This document shows, piece after piece, positions 4,286 through 9,613 of a DNA stretch of 64,000 nt (position 1 is the first letter of the stretch; each line of letters begins with the position of its first letter). Below the pieces are notes generated by a model that worked only from the letters and a program-made list of their open reading frames with translations, ran no database searches and was not told the DNA's origin. A program made the translations under genes and the position numbers. Source of the stretch: Sphingobium amiense (lineage in GTDB: Bacteria > Pseudomonadota > Alphaproteobacteria > Sphingomonadales > Sphingomonadaceae); contig NZ_AP018664.1 of NCBI RefSeq assembly GCF_003967075.1, positions 2,108,001 to 2,172,000 on the forward strand. The letters run 5' to 3'.

Positions 4286-5275
4286 TCATTGGGGCCGGTG
4301 GCCCTTGCGCCATTTGGTGAACAGGTGGCGCGCCAGCATCGGCAGCGGCATGCGCAGCAGGTGCGAACGCAGGTAGAAGGCGAACACCAGCGGCTTGCGC
4401 GTTTCGCGGCCCCATCCGTCGCGGGCGAGCAGGCGGGCGATGAAGAGCCGGTCCCGCAAGGTCAGGCGCGTGCCCGCGCCGTAGATCGCACCTGCCAGCC
4501 TGCGGGCCTGTCTCACATCGCGGGCAAGGCCATGGCGTTCCGCACGTCGATCCAGATCCGCCGGATCGCACTCCCGGAGGAGACAGTGAATGTCCCACAG
4601 GTTGCGCAGCCCGCCCTGCAGGTCTCCGTCGGCGAGCATATGGGCGGCGGCATGGATCACGCGGTCTTCGGGTGAGAGGACATACAACCCCTCCCCCGCC
4701 GCGACGGCATCGGCGAGCATCGCCTGCGGATCGGGACGGGGGCGCGCGGTCAGCGGCAGGATGTTGTGGTGCACGTCGATCATCCGGTCGCGCTCGGCAT
4801 GGATCAGGGGCGGCAGTTCGTGCATCCACTGGCGGTAATAGGCGTCGTCATAGGCGTCTTCCTTCACCCATTCCCAGCCCGCCGCCAGCAGTGCGCGCTC
4901 CACCTGATCCATCGCCGCGCGCGGCACGAGGATGTCGAGATCGCCGATGAAGCGGCCCTGCGCCGCTTCAAGGCCAGCGGCGGCATAGGCTGCGCCCTTG
5001 AGCAGCACCGGCGGCACACCGGTCCCGCGCAGCGCGAAGGCGGCGCGGTCCGCTTCCCAGAGCGCCTGTTGCGCCTCCCGCTCGGCGTCGGCGCGGGCGT
5101 CGTCCAGCACGGCGCGGGCGGCGGGCGGCACGGCGCGCTCCTCCAGCCGGACGGCCAGCGTCGCGATCAGCCGCTCCGCCTTGGCGGCGGCGAGCAGTGC
5201 GTTCCACTGCGCAGCGCGGAGCGCTTCGACGCTTGCGGGATCGCGCAGGGCGCGGACCAGCAGCGCGGCGCTCAT
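4286..5275 (-). CDS. nucleotidyltransferase-fold protein of the HPr-rel-A cassette
   Basis: 329 residues from the ATG at 5275, which overlaps the stop of the upstream kinase gene (ATGA); a start five codons earlier is possible but would overlap more. The hallmark of the uncharacterised nucleotidyltransferase family (NTP_transf_5 type) is visible: LLKGAA at residues 91-96, then GDLDILV with the DxD pair D112/D114. These would position metal and a nucleotide. The rest is helical. It is the last gene of a tightly coupled minus-strand operon (small Tat protein, glycosyltransferase, PqqD-like, HprK-like, this gene). It could transfer a nucleotide or phospho-sugar to a peptide or glycan, but no member has a known substrate that I can name. 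Confidence 0.8.
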   Translation of the reverse strand: MSAALLVRALRDPASVEALRAAQWNALLAAAKAERLIATLAVRLEERAVPPAARAVLDDARADAEREAQQALWEADRAAFALRGTGVPPVLLKGAAYAAAGLEAAQGRFIGDLDILVPRAAMDQVERALLAAGWEWVKEDAYDDAYYRQWMHELPPLIHAERDRMIDVHHNILPLTARPRPDPQAMLADAVAAGEGLYVLSPEDRVIHAAAHMLADGDLQGGLRNLWDIHCLLRECDPADLDRRAERHGLARDVRQARRLAGAIYGAGTRLTLRDRLFIARLLARDGWGRETRKPLVFAFYLRSHLLRMPLPMLARHLFTKWRKGHRPQ

Positions 5276-6135
5276 GCCAGTTCCTCCCACAGCCGCTCGA
5301 CCATCGCGACGGCGGCTTCGCCGTCGGGAAAGTCGATGGCGCGGGCGGGCACCTGCTGCACGAAGCGGGTCAGCGCAGCGAAGCCCGGCTGCCCGAGCGT
5401 CACATAGTTGGTCGACGCCTGTGTCATGCGCATGAAGATTTCGGCCTGCCCGACCGGCCTTTCGTCCTTGGCGTGACCGAAGCGCGGGAAGAGAAGCAGC
5501 GCGGGCATCGCCCCCTCCCCCATGCGCGCGACGGCGTCGGCGCGCGGGACCATGTGGCGGATGTCTCCCTTCGCCGTGCCCCGCAACAGCGGTCCCATGC
5601 GGGCTTCGCCGACTTCCCCCTTCACCACGTCGATAGCGCTGTTCTTGAGGCTGACGAGGCGGGGGAAGGGCAGGATTGCGCCGCTCGTCAGGTCGAGGAG
5701 CGCGAACTCGTCGCCCATGAAGCGCCAGCCGCGCTCACCCAGCAAGGCCGCCAGCGTCGATTTGCCCGAGCCGGACTCGCCCGTCATGACGAGCGCGCGC
5801 CCGTCCTTCTCGACGCTCGATGCATGGAGCAGCAGGTGCCGCCGCCAGCCCAGCGCCATTTGCAGGTTCATCCCCATTTCCGCCGCCAGCAGCCCATGCG
5901 CAAGGCTCATCGGCGCGGCGTCGGCAAGGCCATGGTCGCCGGTGATGAAGATGGACGGGCGCACCCAGCGGCGCAGCGCGCCGGTCGGCTGGAGCCGAAC
6001 GGTGAAGTCGGCGATGCACCCGTCCGCATCCGGATAACCGGCATAAAGCCGCCGCAGCGCCGCAATCGGCGACGCCCATGCAGAGCCGATGCGGAAGTTC
6101 GCCGGACCGATCTTCAGGGTCAGCCTGTGCCTCAT
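5272..6135 (-). CDS. HprK-related kinase A
   Basis: 287 residues. The central part resembles the kinase domain of HPr kinase/phosphorylase. HASSVEKDGRALVMTGESGSGKST spans roughly residues 104-127 in two adjoining pieces, with the P-loop GESGSGKST at 119-127, followed by an acidic GDEFALL (141-147) where HprK carries catalytic aspartates. It lacks the HPr-recognition features and length of true HprK, and no ptsH lies near. Similar P-loop kinases occur in peptide-modification clusters, for example lasso-peptide serine kinases. It starts inside the end of the PqqD-like gene (4-base overlap) and its stop overlaps the next start, so the three proteins are translationally coupled. Phosphoacceptor unknown. 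Confidence 0.85.
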   Translation of the reverse strand: MRHRLTLKIGPANFRIGSAWASPIAALRRLYAGYPDADGCIADFTVRLQPTGALRRWVRPSIFITGDHGLADAAPMSLAHGLLAAEMGMNLQMALGWRRHLLLHASSVEKDGRALVMTGESGSGKSTLAALLGERGWRFMGDEFALLDLTSGAILPFPRLVSLKNSAIDVVKGEVGEARMGPLLRGTAKGDIRHMVPRADAVARMGEGAMPALLLFPRFGHAKDERPVGQAEIFMRMTQASTNYVTLGQPGFAALTRFVQQVPARAIDFPDGEAAVAMVERLWEELA

Positions 6136-6428
6136 GCCGGGCGCACCAGCCCCAGCGCTGCCAGCGATTCCAGATGCGCGGCGATGGCCTCCACCGCCGC
6201 ATCGCGGGGTCCGAGGTCAAAGTCGCGCGCGAGATCGTCGTGCAGCGCCGCCGCCGTCACCGGTGCGCCGCTTTCCATGCGGGCGAGAATCTCCGGCACG
6301 GGGCTGATGACCATATGCGTCTGACCCGAGCGGCGGTGATAGAGCAAAGTCAGGTCATCGAGCGCGCAGGTCAGCAGCGCGTCGGCTTCGCTCCGGCGAT
6401 AGGCTGTCGTCGCGGACAATGATGGCAC
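6132..6428 (-). CDS. HPr-rel-A system PqqD-family peptide chaperone
   Basis: 98 residues, the size of PqqD. It has the PqqD pattern of a short beta-winged start, a segment DLTLLYHRRSGQTHMVISPVPEIL (read in two parts), then helices ending LESLAALGLV. PqqD and RRE domains bind leader peptides and present them to modifying enzymes. Here it sits directly upstream of, and overlaps by 4 bases, an HprK-related kinase, as in the recognised HPr-rel-A three-gene cassette (PqqD-like, kinase, nucleotidyltransferase). The predicted role is binding the target peptide or protein for the kinase. The target itself has not been shown for this system as far as I know. Confidence 0.75.
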   Translation of the reverse strand: MPSLSATTAYRRSEADALLTCALDDLTLLYHRRSGQTHMVISPVPEILARMESGAPVTAAALHDDLARDFDLGPRDAAVEAIAAHLESLAALGLVRPA

Positions 6429-6478
6429 CCCCGGATCGCGTCTCCCCCCTTCTCTAGCGCGGGAGAGTAGCCAAGTGC

Positions 6479-7645
6479 CTAACGTATCAGCACGGGGCTG
6501 GCGATGGGCGTCGCGTTCGCCTGAATGCCGACCAGCGTCCTGAACGCGTGGAGATAATGGTCGAGCGCGCGCTCCACGCCATGATCGCGCACGGCGGCGG
6601 TCAGCCTTTCGGGCGCGACCGGATGCGCCATCGTGCGTTCGACGGCGCGCGCGAAGGCGGCGGCGTCGCCCACCGGCACGACCGGATGCTGCGCCGCCGC
6701 AGCCATGATCGGGCGGATATTGGGCGTGCAGTCGGTCGAAACCACCTGCGTTCCGCAGGACAGCGCTTCGATCAGGGTGGCGCCCAGCCCTTCCCAGCAG
6801 GATGGCTGGAGCAGAATGTCGGATTCCCCCATGAGGGCGGCCAGCGCATCGGGATCACCGACATAGCCGGCGAAGGTCACGCGGTCAGCGATGCCCAGCG
6901 ATTCGCTCCGGTCCCGCAGCGACGCTTCGAGCGGCCCCTGCCCCGCGATGGTCAGCCGCCAGTCGATGTGGCGCAAGCGGGCCAGCGCCGCCAGCCCGGT
7001 CGCATGGTCCTTCTGCTTTGCGAGCCGGCCGACCATCAGCAGCCGCCACGGCGCGTCCGGGCAGCGACCTTTGCGCGACGCGCCGATCCGCGCCATGGCG
7101 GGCGTGACGGTGGGGCGCGGCAGCAGGCGCACCGGGCCGGTTGCTTCCAGCAGATCGCGGTCATGCGCGCCCATGACGATGGTCAGATCGCTGATGCGGC
7201 TGATCGCGCGAAACCGGCTGAGCCGCGCAAGCGTCGGCAGGCGGTGCTTTCCGGCGTGCACGATCGGGTTGGAAATGCGCGCCACCGCCTTTGTCGGTGT
7301 CCCCCGGCACGCCAGCGCCACCAGCATATTGCTCTGATTGCCCGCCGAATAGAGGATGTCGGGGCGATGGCGCCGGACCATGGCCGCGAGGCGGGGATAT
7401 TGCGCGATCATCGACAGGCGGCGGGCCATGCGGGGCGCTTTGACCTGACGCACGGGGACGTCGGGATCAATGAGATGCGCCGCTGGACCTTCCAGCCTCG
7501 TCATCCACAGTTCGACCGGAATGCGTCGCCGGAGCAGATGGTTGGCGAGGAGGATGGCGACGCGGTCGAGACCGCCGTCGCCCGGTTGATAGAGATAGAT
7601 CGCGACAAAGGGTCTGGACCCTTCCGGGCCGCCATACTGAAACAT
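6479..7645 (-). CDS. GT4-family glycosyltransferase
   Basis: 388 residues, a GT-B enzyme. The N-terminal acceptor domain has GGLDRVAILLANHL, and the C-terminal donor domain carries VGRLAKQKDHATGL and PSCWEGLGATLIEALSCGTQVVSTDC (read in parts), the E-x7-E-type donor-binding stretch of GT4. It transfers a sugar from a nucleotide donor, typically in exopolysaccharide or glycolipid synthesis at the inner face of the membrane. It lies 50 bases upstream of the PqqD-like gene and 145 bases downstream of the Tat-protein gene, all on the same strand. It is therefore likely part of the HPr-rel-A operon; whether it acts on the same product is open. Confidence 0.85.
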   Translation of the reverse strand: MFQYGGPEGSRPFVAIYLYQPGDGGLDRVAILLANHLLRRRIPVELWMTRLEGPAAHLIDPDVPVRQVKAPRMARRLSMIAQYPRLAAMVRRHRPDILYSAGNQSNMLVALACRGTPTKAVARISNPIVHAGKHRLPTLARLSRFRAISRISDLTIVMGAHDRDLLEATGPVRLLPRPTVTPAMARIGASRKGRCPDAPWRLLMVGRLAKQKDHATGLAALARLRHIDWRLTIAGQGPLEASLRDRSESLGIADRVTFAGYVGDPDALAALMGESDILLQPSCWEGLGATLIEALSCGTQVVSTDCTPNIRPIMAAAAQHPVVPVGDAAAFARAVERTMAHPVAPERLTAAVRDHGVERALDHYLHAFRTLVGIQANATPIASPVLIR

Positions 7646-7789
7646 CGACTGTTCCCCTGTAGTATGCGACCCGCCCTGTCTGTGACGGAGTCAAACCGGG
7701 AAATCCATCCAAAGTTCAGTTTGTTACAATGCAGAAACGATATATTTCGGCGTCGCGATCCGGCGGACGGGGTCCGCCTGTTTCGAGAC

Positions 7790-8224
7790 CTAGCGCGGCA
7801 TTTGCAGGGAAGCGTAGCAGGTAAAGCCGCTGGTGCCGCGCTGAAGGCGGCGGATATAGTTGAGATAGGCCTGATTCTGCTCGTAGCTGGTGCCGGGCAG
7901 CCGCCCGCCCTGCATCGCCTGCTTGACCTGTTCACCGGAGAAGGGCCGCCCCGCGCCGGGATAGGCGCCCTGCGTGCCCGCCGGGACCAGATTGCCGTCC
8001 GGCGCGATATAGTTGCTGGCGCGGCCCTGATCGGGGACCGGGATGGTGCAGTTGAGCACCGACGCGGCGGTGTTGGCGAGCGCCGGGCGGATCGACACGA
8101 TGGCCGCGCCCGCGACCGCTCCGCCCATCAGCAACTGGCGGCGCGAGGGAACGGGCAGCGCGGCGTCGGTGCGCCCTGCCTCTTCGCCCTGCGCGGCATC
8201 CTGCGGCTGCGTCGGTTCGTTCAT
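7790..8224 (-). CDS. small Tat-exported protein with two cysteines
   Basis: 144 residues from the ATG at 8224, preceded by AGGGA at 7-nt spacing. The first 27 residues are polar. SRRQLL (27-32) then begins a twin-arginine signal, with the hydrophobic GGAVAGAAIVSI and an ALA cleavage site near residue 50. The mature part, about 94 residues, has two cysteines (C59 and C136), a Pro/Gly-rich middle (DGNLVPAGTQGAYPGAG) and a helical YLNYIRRL segment. I recognise no enzyme fold. It is the first gene of the operon holding the PqqD-like carrier, HprK-like kinase, nucleotidyltransferase and glycosyltransferase. As the only small non-enzymatic product, it is the natural candidate substrate or partner of that set. 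This is inference from position. Confidence 0.7.
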   Translation of the reverse strand: MNEPTQPQDAAQGEEAGRTDAALPVPSRRQLLMGGAVAGAAIVSIRPALANTAASVLNCTIPVPDQGRASNYIAPDGNLVPAGTQGAYPGAGRPFSGEQVKQAMQGGRLPGTSYEQNQAYLNYIRRLQRGTSGFTCYASLQMPR

Positions 8225-8326: not shown

Positions 8327-9613
8327 ATGAATCGACTGACCACTTCCCAGATCACCGCCTCGCTCGCCATGCTGCTTCTGGGCACGGGGGGCGCGCTGGC
8401 GCTGGGCGCGTCGGCCATCGCCATCGCGCTGCCGGTGCTGGCGGGCCTTGTCGTCATGCTGATCTGCGCCGAAGGGACGCCCACCGGCACGGACACCACA
8501 CCTGCGGACGCGGACATTCCCGACTTTCCCGATCATCCCGCCTTCGCCAGCCTGATGGAAGCGATCGCCGACCCGCTGATGCTGGTCGAGCGCGGGCGCA
8601 TCCTGCGCGCCAACCGCGCGGCGCAGCGGCTGCTGGGCAATCATATCGAGGGGGAGGACGCACGGCTCGCCATCCGCCACCCCGCCGCCGCCGAGCGGCT
8701 GTCGAGCACGGCCCCGCTCGCCGAGCCGCTGACCATCGAACTGGTCGGCGTGGGCGGCCGCGATGCGCGCTGGCAGATGCGCATCGCGCCGGTGGGCGAC
8801 GTCGCCGACATCCGCCGCCTCGTCCACCTCGTCGATCATAGCGGAACCCATGCCGCCGAGCGGATGCGCGTCGATTTCGTCGCCAATGCCAGCCATGAAC
8901 TGCGCACGCCGCTGGCCGGAATACTGGGCTTCATCGAAACGCTGGCCGACCCGGAACTGGGCAAGGACGGGGAAACGCGGCAACGCTTCCTCGGCATCAT
9001 GGACGGCGAAGCGCGGCGGATGCAGCGGCTGATCGACGACCTCATTTCCCTGTCTCGCATCGAATCGGAAAAGCATCGCCTGCCCGACATGCGCGTCGAT
9101 CTGGCCGAACTGGCGGCGGAGGTGGTCGGCGTCTTTCGCTCCAGCCACGGCGAGCGGGGCCGTGACGTGCAGATGGACATCGCGCCTGCCGTGCCCGCCG
9201 TTCAGGGCGACCGGGCGCAACTGTCGCAGCTTCTGCACAACCTCATCGGCAATTCGGTCAAATATGGCCGCCCCGGCACGCCAATTCATGTGTCGCTGAC
9301 CGAAGGGCCGAGCCGCATGGCGAAGCTGATCGTCGCGGACGAAGGCGAAGGCATCGCGCCCGATCATCTGCCGCGCCTCACCGAACGCTTCTACCGCGTC
9401 GATTCCGGCCGCAGCCGGGCGATGGGGGGCACGGGCCTCGGCCTCGCCATCGTCAAGCACATCGTCGAGCGGCATCGCGGGCGATTCGATATTGCCAGCA
9501 CGCTGGGCAAGGGGGCGACCATCACCGTCCTGCTGCCGCCGCCGGTCGAGGAAAGCGCGCAGAGGAACGACGAGAAAAAGCGGCCTTCGGCACTTTCGGG
9601 CACGGTGTCATGA
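8327..9613 (+). CDS. phoR: phosphate regulon sensor histidine kinase PhoR
   Basis: 428 residues from the ATG at 8327; the same frame stays open far upstream, but the hydrophobic N-terminus begins here. Residues 8-47 form one or two membrane helices, 70-170 a PAS-like domain (NRAAQRLLG), then the H-box FVANASHELRTPL with phospho-accepting H190. The ATPase domain has the N-box (HNLIGNSVKYG), VADEGEGI and GGTGLGLAIVKH. PhoR phosphorylates PhoB when phosphate is scarce, under control of PstSCAB and PhoU, and those genes follow immediately on the same strand. It is divergent, with 102 bases between, from the HPr-rel-A operon. Confidence 0.92.
   Translation: MNRLTTSQITASLAMLLLGTGGALALGASAIAIALPVLAGLVVMLICAEGTPTGTDTTPADADIPDFPDHPAFASLMEAIADPLMLVERGRILRANRAAQRLLGNHIEGEDARLAIRHPAAAERLSSTAPLAEPLTIELVGVGGRDARWQMRIAPVGDVADIRRLVHLVDHSGTHAAERMRVDFVANASHELRTPLAGILGFIETLADPELGKDGETRQRFLGIMDGEARRMQRLIDDLISLSRIESEKHRLPDMRVDLAELAAEVVGVFRSSHGERGRDVQMDIAPAVPAVQGDRAQLSQLLHNLIGNSVKYGRPGTPIHVSLTEGPSRMAKLIVADEGEGIAPDHLPRLTERFYRVDSGRSRAMGGTGLGLAIVKHIVERHRGRFDIASTLGKGATITVLLPPPVEESAQRNDEKKRPSALSGTVS

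Follow-up and report, generated by a model that had tools for sequence, protein, structure and literature searches.

We predict that the HPr-rel-A cassette of Sphingobium amiense probably carries out a RiPP-like modification, with the small Tat-signal protein from the gene immediately upstream as its substrate, which would be modified before its Tat-dependent export. The cassette lies at 4286..8224 of the window (the whole 64,000-nucleotide stretch of DNA that was analyzed). All five minus-strand genes listed there by the first-pass annotation were recovered in place, four of them (all but the Tat-signal protein) with agreeing family profiles, and the coordinates confirm the 4-base overlaps that it had given for the PqqD-like, kinase and nucleotidyltransferase (NTase) genes, one at the PqqD-like/kinase junction and one at the kinase/NTase junction. 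The genes and their divergent neighbor are as follows.

7790..8224, minus strand: small Tat-signal protein, proposed substrate, 144 aa (from ORF reading; two cysteines, C59 and C136; co-occurs with the kinase).
6479..7645, minus strand: GT4 glycosyltransferase, accessory, between the Tat protein and the PqqD-like gene (PF00534, 107.8 bits).
6132..6428, minus strand: PqqD-family RRE-like protein, 98 aa, GTG start (TIGR04353, 74.8 bits, cut-off 35).
5272..6135, minus strand: HprK-related kinase A with the P-loop GESGSGKST (TIGR04352, 231 bits, cut-off 200).
4286..5275, minus strand: NTP_transf_5 nucleotidyltransferase-like protein with a DLD motif (PF14907, 185.9 bits, cut-off 31.2).
8327..9613, plus strand: PhoR-like histidine kinase, divergent neighbor by synteny only (searched as 8333-9610; TIGR02966, 291.6 bits, below the cut-off of 334.2).

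The window's kinase and PqqD-like protein thus exceed both curated NCBIfam cut-offs for HPr-rel-A. The gene order of small Tat-signal protein, PqqD-like protein, kinase and NTase recurs within Sphingomonadales and outside it; hence, the grouping is not a chance feature of the S. amiense genome. The PqqD-like, kinase and NTase genes fall together within the fetched 5-kb flank in 78 of 80 named loci, the other two ending at a contig edge. The GT4 gene, which the first-pass annotation had counted as a core part of the cassette, is instead an accessory gene, its core membership being ruled out by patchy occurrence: among the first 60 loci it was found at the home locus only, it comes after the Tat gene in 24 of the 80 named loci, and a homolog, counted regardless of position, is present in 45/94 genomes of the genus. 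Elsewhere in the same genome lies a further, short HprK-like frame of 167 aa.

The two enzymes display intact active-site motifs. In alignments confined to sequences of plausible length (73 kinases, 82 NTases and 35 PqqD-like proteins), residues H104, K125, D142 and E143 are conserved in 73/73 kinases, and K93, G94, R108, D112 and D114 (the KG, R and DxD motifs) in 82/82 NTases. The kinase profile matches HPr kinase structures (2qmh, 1jb1 and 1ko7; E ~1e-4) and, by profile alignment, shares with HPr kinase/phosphorylase the catalytic His, the P-loop and the acidic pair, but the match is confined to positions 104-144 and a single kinase sequence reaches E values of 0.17-0.33. No match to PDB sequences was obtained for the NTase (best profile E 0.14). 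As a cassette apparently equipped for phosphorylation and further decoration of a protein travels with an export-signal protein, that protein is its probable target.

A twin-arginine motif, a hydrophobic stretch and an A-x-A site can all be read directly in the window's Tat protein, the corresponding residues 26-41 giving a sub-threshold match to the Pfam TAT_signal model (PF10518; 16.5 bits vs. a cut-off of 22.7). Neither this protein nor its counterparts in the same slot upstream of other kinases (7 scanned against NCBIfam and 11 against Pfam) score above any family cut-off in these two collections. An alignment of 22 sequences (A1) delineates the following elements.

8075..8143, minus strand: twin-arginine signal region spanning R28 to A50, proposed to serve as leader peptide too (R29, L32, A36 and A50 invariant in 22 sequences).
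8060..8062, minus strand: Ser55, candidate phosphorylation site 1, in S-x3-C (invariant in A1, 22 sequences).
8048..8050, minus strand: Cys59, probable disulfide partner (invariant in A1; even cysteine count in 77/78 type I rows).
7817..7819, minus strand: Cys136, probable disulfide partner (invariant in A1).
7808..7810, minus strand: Ser139, candidate phosphorylation site 2, in C-x-x-S (invariant in A1).

An AlphaFold2 model built on A1 (mean pLDDT 68, pTM 0.52) is most confident at residues 71-120 (pLDDT 86-92 by blocks of ten) and places helices at 97-104, 114-125 and 134-141. The best PDB sequence matches of the Tat-protein profile, to cytokine receptor chains at E 0.1, were taken as chance.

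The first-pass annotation had tied this protein to the kinase, PqqD-like and NTase trio, and the phyletic patterns in Sphingomonadaceae uphold the tie. The kinase is present in 104 of 298 genomes; a Tat-protein profile recovers the protein in 102, all of them among these 104, inspection of the slot reveals diverged proteins in the remaining two, and the same profile finds none in the 194 kinase-less genomes. Wide occurrence of the Tat protein in the absence of the trio, which the first-pass annotation had named as refuting its proposal, is thus not seen in this family. A1 includes sequences from the 298-genome sample, such that part of the 102 match by construction, while the zero is unaffected. 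Tallied by genus, each of the two is present in 31 of 91 genera. It might be argued that the Tat protein simply belongs to a phosphate (pho/pst) neighborhood and owes its link with the trio to genomic position: most loci of the order show the Tat gene diverging from a phoR-like gene. We consider this very improbable because the Tat protein and the trio also co-occur in genomes where they are unlinked. There are five such genomes; in four, the trio lies elsewhere while the Tat gene stays beside the phoR-like gene, as might also be expected if it belonged there, and in one (G053) the Tat protein and PqqD-like gene stand together, away from the kinase and NTase. Conversely, all 12 kinase-less genomes searched possess phoR, with no protein of the Tat pattern within 1.5 kb of it, which together with the unlinked genomes makes phoR synteny unlikely as the cause of the co-occurrence. 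In four loci outside the order whose genes were read (L149, L152, L158 and L165), nothing phoR-like was noticed next to the slot protein. A Pho box in the phoR/Tat intergenic region was likewise rejected, there being no signal over shuffles upstream of the Tat gene (mean shuffle p 0.44; 5/48 at p <= 0.05).

Across a wider set of kinase loci, a Tat-signal ORF lies upstream of the kinase in 101/114 cases (51/56, 32/38 and 18/20), with sequences that are often unalike; 89 of the 101 share the twin-arginine signal and a C-x-x-S motif, mostly near the C-terminus. No slot protein was found in 6 of the 114 loci, three of which have a kinase below the cut-off. Of the 79 genomes whose kinase exceeds the cut-off in the initial search, 55 and then nine more had their regions fetched, as did two with a kinase below it (G006 and G093), the other 15 having no fetched region. 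A regular expression with widened spacing recovers the pattern in 80/80 named loci, and one with narrower spacing in 60/80. Outside Sphingomonadaceae, a single-sequence search matches only G002 and, doubtfully, G014, and the link there comes from signal scans and reading by eye, the slot proteins themselves having been selected for a Tat signal. A universal C-terminal C-x-x-S can be ruled out, since 12/32 slot proteins outside the order are without it. In one genus (g258), a Gly-rich stretch displaces the N-terminal Ser. The Tat gene occurs as two tandem copies at four loci (L088, L106, L116 and L198). Proteins unalike between families fill the same slot, and the tie to the trio that the first-pass annotation had proposed for the window's protein extends to them. 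More tentatively, and with somewhat less conviction than an even chance would carry, we posit that the Tat signal doubles as a RiPP leader across Pseudomonadota. A small protein, in many cases disulfide-bonded, would be recognized at its signal region by the RRE, the HprK-type kinase and the PF14907 enzyme, and would be phosphorylated and capped on a serine close to the point of cleavage before export, coupling modification and Tat export on one leader; the slot proteins would then constitute one class of HPr-rel-A substrates.

For the window's cassette, the mechanism that we favor begins in the cytoplasm, where the PqqD-like RRE protein would bind the N-terminal part of the precursor, with the Tat signal as the probable contact. 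The HprK-related kinase would then phosphorylate a conserved serine, which could be either Ser55, located after the signal, or Ser139 within the C-terminal C-x-x-S, and the PF14907 enzyme would potentially cap or extend this phosphate with a nucleotide or a sugar. The Tat system would export the modified protein, with loss of the signal, and a C59-C136 disulfide would form outside the cell. In an alternative with similar players, modification of the Tat protein by the kinase and NTase would serve solely as a checkpoint on folding or export; it would be transient and leave the final product unmodified. The Tat system exports folded proteins and HPr kinases can double as phosphatases, both of which count in its favor, as do the even cysteine counts, which suggest disulfides that form only after export. 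Against it, an NTase that might cap a phosphate is labeled in most loci (neighborhood tables). Moreover, in the consulted text of the papers on lasso peptides and on the linear polyphosphorylated peptides (LPP) of Bacillota, lasso products and processed LPP cores carry phosphate, though the final LPP product was not identified (PMC9266682, PMC13381572). On balance, we regard the checkpoint as improbable.

A further possibility is that the Tat protein is not the substrate but an extracytoplasmic partner of the trio's product, which would be a separately encoded modified peptide or an exopolysaccharide. One typed locus outside the order sits among XrtA exopolysaccharide genes (TIGR03087, TIGR03108), and XrtA (E <= 1e-40) occurs in 73/79 kinase genomes against 36/68 others in the order (Fisher p 4e-8, uncorrected for relatedness). 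However, those 36 genomes show that XrtA is common without the kinase, and the cassette has no other small gene as a recurrent neighbor in different families (neighborhood table, with a non-exhaustive small-ORF search). The Tat proteins themselves also have the anatomy of precursors, with conserved ends and a variable core of 47-234 residues. We therefore hold the partner role to be unlikely, if less so than the checkpoint, and retain the Tat protein as the probable substrate. These sequence features come from 84 rows chosen for an RR signal, C-x-x-S and a Ser/Thr shortly before a Cys, such that the frequency of these three is inflated there; two spurious rows (L068_1, L180_1) were dropped from the proline-spacing, core-length and cysteine counts, and the latter two counts also omit four rows with the last C-x-x-S more than 60 residues from the end.

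A Tat signal that doubles as a leader would mean that a single recognition sequence serves both protein export and RiPP-type modification. With two invariant serines, the candidate opens the HPr-rel-A substrate and the NTP-transferase chemistry alike to direct testing in culturable Sphingobium and Sphingomonas; in the text consulted, the chemistry of the NTP-transferases accompanying HprK-like kinases is left unsettled in both papers (PMC9266682, PMC13381572). The NCBIfam names and descriptions of HPr-rel-A, as shown, state no substrate, and we propose the Tat protein as one. Our literature search found no occurrence of TIGR04352, TIGR04353, 'HPr-rel-A system', NTP_transf_5 or PF14907. As far as searched, the first-pass statement that no product has been characterized holds for this cassette, while related sets have been studied in LPP (PMC13381572) and in lasso tailoring (PMC9266682). 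The terms kinase and HprK are absent from the main text of the RRE-Finder paper (PMC7470986) and of a 2025 RRE paper (PMC12710340), and titles and abstract openings on twin-arginine signals, RiPPs and leader peptides describe no shared Tat/RiPP leader.

The tailoring of the lasso peptides paeninodin and pseudomycoidin is alike in using an HprK-like kinase on a conserved precursor serine together with PsmN, which is annotated as a nucleotidyltransferase and required for hexoses on phospho-Ser; by the available account, it could be a glycosyltransferase or a nucleotidyltransferase (PMC9266682). The lasso kinases described there have the motif His-Lys-Asp-Asp, whereas the kinase here has His-Lys-Asp-Glu. 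No lasso cyclase or B2 peptidase was noticed when the ORFs flanking the window's cassette were read, and an Asn-synthetase-like neighbor at L149 is an XrtA amidotransferase (TIGR03108, 1018 bits; lasso cyclase model, 239.5 bits vs. a cut-off of 525).

The closest known system is LPP (PMC13381572), whose precursors, like those of lasso peptides (PMC9266682), are phosphorylated by HprK-like kinases. As far as the consulted text of its description goes, LPP resembles the HPr-rel-A cassette in having a discrete RRE, an HprK-like kinase and an NTP-transferase (LppN, for which activity was not detected), a small precursor whose N-terminus is conserved and C-terminus variable, loci encoding from one to three precursors, and a polysaccharide-locus context. 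Its phospho-serine lies 15 residues after the proline of a P-x-V leader (PMC13381572); here, a Ser is found at +15 from the signal proline in 37/53 distinct proline-bearing proteins and at +14 to +16 in 49/53, the proline itself being missing in 26/82 rows, including the window's own protein. None of the 53 has the Tyr/Trp at P-3 of the LPP and lasso leaders (YxxPxV in LPP), and we accordingly do not claim LPP membership. We also rejected, as a rule, the fixed cleavage that LPP shows 12 residues past the proline, the last A-x-A-type site being at +12 in 17/53 and at +9, +10, +11, +13 or +14 in the rest. No SipW-like peptidase or MsbA-like transporter was noticed on reading the ORFs in the first 16 kb of the window or the neighborhood tables, whose neighbors were partly scanned against family models. 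Conserved cysteines and a C-x-x-S at the C-terminus set the type I precursors apart from those of LPP, and where LPP, as described in the text consulted, has a SipW-like signal peptidase and an MsbA-like transporter, the precursor here bears a twin-arginine signal.

Five minus-strand genes in the window include the HPr-rel-A cassette, all of them present where the first-pass annotation had placed them, with two 4-base overlaps among the PqqD-like, kinase and nucleotidyltransferase (NTase) genes:

8224-7790, minus strand, twin-arginine (Tat)-signal protein without a family match over cut-off
7645-6479, minus strand, GT4 glycosyltransferase
6428-6132, minus strand, PqqD-like protein, over the TIGR04353 cut-off
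6135-5272, minus strand, HprK-related kinase, over the TIGR04352 cut-off
5275-4286, minus strand, NTase (PF14907)

By their sequences, the enzymes of the trio formed by the last three genes look active: the kinase has His104, Lys125, Asp142 and Glu143 in 73/73 aligned sequences, the NTase has Lys93, Gly94, Arg108, Asp112 and Asp114 in 82/82, and the PqqD-like protein has Thr37-His38 in 35/35. The kinase profile matches HPr kinase structures over positions 104-144 (E about 1e-4). The GT4 (6479-7645), which has a homologue in 45/94 genomes of the genus, might elongate a sugar that the NTase has attached. A second HprK-like match (sub-cut-off, 33 bits; G000:C1:2578680-2578862, locus L002) lies in a 167-aa frame that is probably an ordinary short HPr kinase. 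At four other loci (L152, L158, L165 and L185), a 554-732 aa protein is encoded between kinase and NTase, with the L158 copy displaying TPR repeats and a weak NoeE match (E 8e-5).

The first-pass annotation had proposed the Tat protein as substrate, a reading that a Tat protein widespread without the trio would have contradicted; within Sphingomonadaceae we found it in 0/194 kinase-less genomes using a 22-sequence alignment of the protein (A1, E <= 1e-4). This figure comes from 298 genomes of the family (completeness >= 90), of which 104 have the kinase and 102 the Tat protein by the same search, all 102 falling inside the 104; A1 includes sequences from sampled genomes, so that part of the 102 matches arise by construction, with the 0/194 unaffected. 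Both tallies cover 31/91 genera, and the two kinase genomes without an A1 match (G591, G679) have a diverged protein in the same place. Across the order Sphingomonadales, the kinase exceeds its cut-off in 79/147 genomes, and a single-sequence Tat query matched 25 of the 147, all inside the kinase-positive 79; one match, in G014 (E 6e-4, with an internal stop), is not counted as real. Among the 64 genomes of the window's family in this sample, the kinase and Tat sets are identical (n=23), the match in G053 being weak (E 6e-5). As related genomes are not independent, no probability is attached to these counts. Genus g11 is mixed, with both kinase and Tat protein in G071 and neither in G083, which argues against one inherited block. 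Nor is linkage needed for co-occurrence: in four genomes (G035, G080, G097, G119) the Tat gene adjoins a phoR-like gene and the trio is located elsewhere, and in G053 the Tat protein and PqqD-like gene stand together with kinase and NTase on another contig. Twelve kinase-less family genomes have phoR in 12/12 and a Tat protein of the pattern within 1.5 kb of it in 0/12.

A Tat-signal ORF occupies a slot upstream of the kinase in 101/114 kinase loci (51/56 in the order, 32/38 outside it and 18/20 further loci in the order), those of L148, L168, L172 and L182 being recognised by eye. The other 13 comprise five unlinked cases, two with an A1 match in place (G558, and G579, where it stands at a contig end) and six where a slot ORF was sought and none found (L160, L174, L175, L176, L179, L183), the kinases of L174-L176 scoring below cut-off. 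On clustering, slot proteins of different families fall in separate groups, and thus one place is filled by proteins unalike in sequence. Four cassettes (L088, L106, L116, L198) have two tandem slot proteins. At L187 (G108:C3:12500-26500), a Gly-rich RR-signal protein precedes an HprK-like kinase scoring below cut-off and a PF14907-like gene; this may be a related system.

Type I slot proteins, with an RR signal and C-x-x-S in the C-terminal part, account for 89/101 (51 + 20 + 18; for the last 18, from the further order loci, both features were part of the scan criteria). In 62/82 usable rows the first Cys is preceded by a Ser at a distance of exactly four residues, and in 80/82 at a distance of three to six, these rows being pre-selected for Ser/Thr near Cys. 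The outer cysteines enclose a core of 47-234 residues in 78 type I rows, and 77 of these have the even cysteine number that disulfides would need. S55, C59, C136 and S139 are invariant in the 22 A1 sequences of the window's family, and S-x3-C and C-x2-S recur in 80/80 named loci. As a control, we scanned 800 kb of sequence from the genome to which the window belongs: of its 8,648 stop-to-stop segments of at least 50 residues, 3 had the C-terminal motif and 0 had RR in addition. In the first 60 loci, no RR-plus-motif ORFs were found outside the slot besides the four unlinked Tat genes. Type II (12/101), all outside the order, lack the C-terminal C-x-x-S, and several have C-x-x-S-G directly after the signal. 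They occur at L148, L150, L151, L159, L163, L164 and L168-L173, several with an [ST]PGxW-like stretch.

A search of genome contigs with the A1 profile found 420 relatives, the best 80 mostly from Sphingobium and Sphingomonas, which places the window in Sphingomonadaceae and, going by the best matches, most probably in Sphingobium; PqqD-like, kinase and NTase genes lie inside the 5-kb flank in 78 of these 80, and contig ends cut the flank in the remaining two. Database proteins matching at E <= 0.001 number 1,953, and among the best 120 any name given is hypothetical or uncharacterized. The literature searched yielded no mention of TIGR04352, TIGR04353, 'HPr-rel-A system', NTP_transf_5 or PF14907. 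Among the papers listed, and judging from those listings, we found no Tat-signal substrate reported in work on HprK-related kinases combined with PqqD or with lasso peptides, on lasso kinases, on exosortase combined with HprK or PqqD, on LPP (the linear polyphosphorylated peptides of Bacillota), or on RiPP leader peptides in connection with twin-arginine signals. Tat protein and trio are strongly linked, and as the best-supported reading of this link we infer one of enzyme to substrate.

The genomic setting suggests a role in the envelope or matrix, without showing one. XrtA is present in 73/79 kinase genomes of the order vs 36/68 others, and L149, a typed locus outside the order, is flanked by two members of the XrtA exopolysaccharide system, namely an upstream glycosyltransferase (TIGR03087) and a downstream amidotransferase (TIGR03108). 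An Asn-synthetase-like gene, judged by its sequence start, follows the NTase at L152, L158 and L165. LPPs, too, are often found close to capsular polysaccharide loci, according to passages of PMC13381572.

According to passages of a review, lasso kinases place their phosphate on a conserved C-terminal Ser, and PsmN is required for hexoses on it (PMC9266682). The LPP set, as given in parts of PMC13381572, comprises an RRE, an HprK-like kinase, an NTP-transferase (inactive in the host used), a SipW-like peptidase and an MsbA-like transporter, with a leader YxxPxVLxHQxIxFETxxS, cleavage after T-1 and phosphate on S3. The published motif puts S3 15 residues from the proline. Of 53 distinct slot proteins whose signal reads P-x-h-h-[TS]-h, 37 have Ser at +15 from the signal proline and 49 have it somewhere from +14 to +16, against a mean Ser frequency of 12% over offsets 6-29. 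Unlike the LPP leader, however, these slot proteins have Tyr or Trp at P-3 in 0/53, and the proline, present in some genomes of the window's family, is missing in 26/82 rows, the window's own protein included. Because of these two differences we withhold the label, and call the slot-protein system LPP-like in its working, not an LPP.
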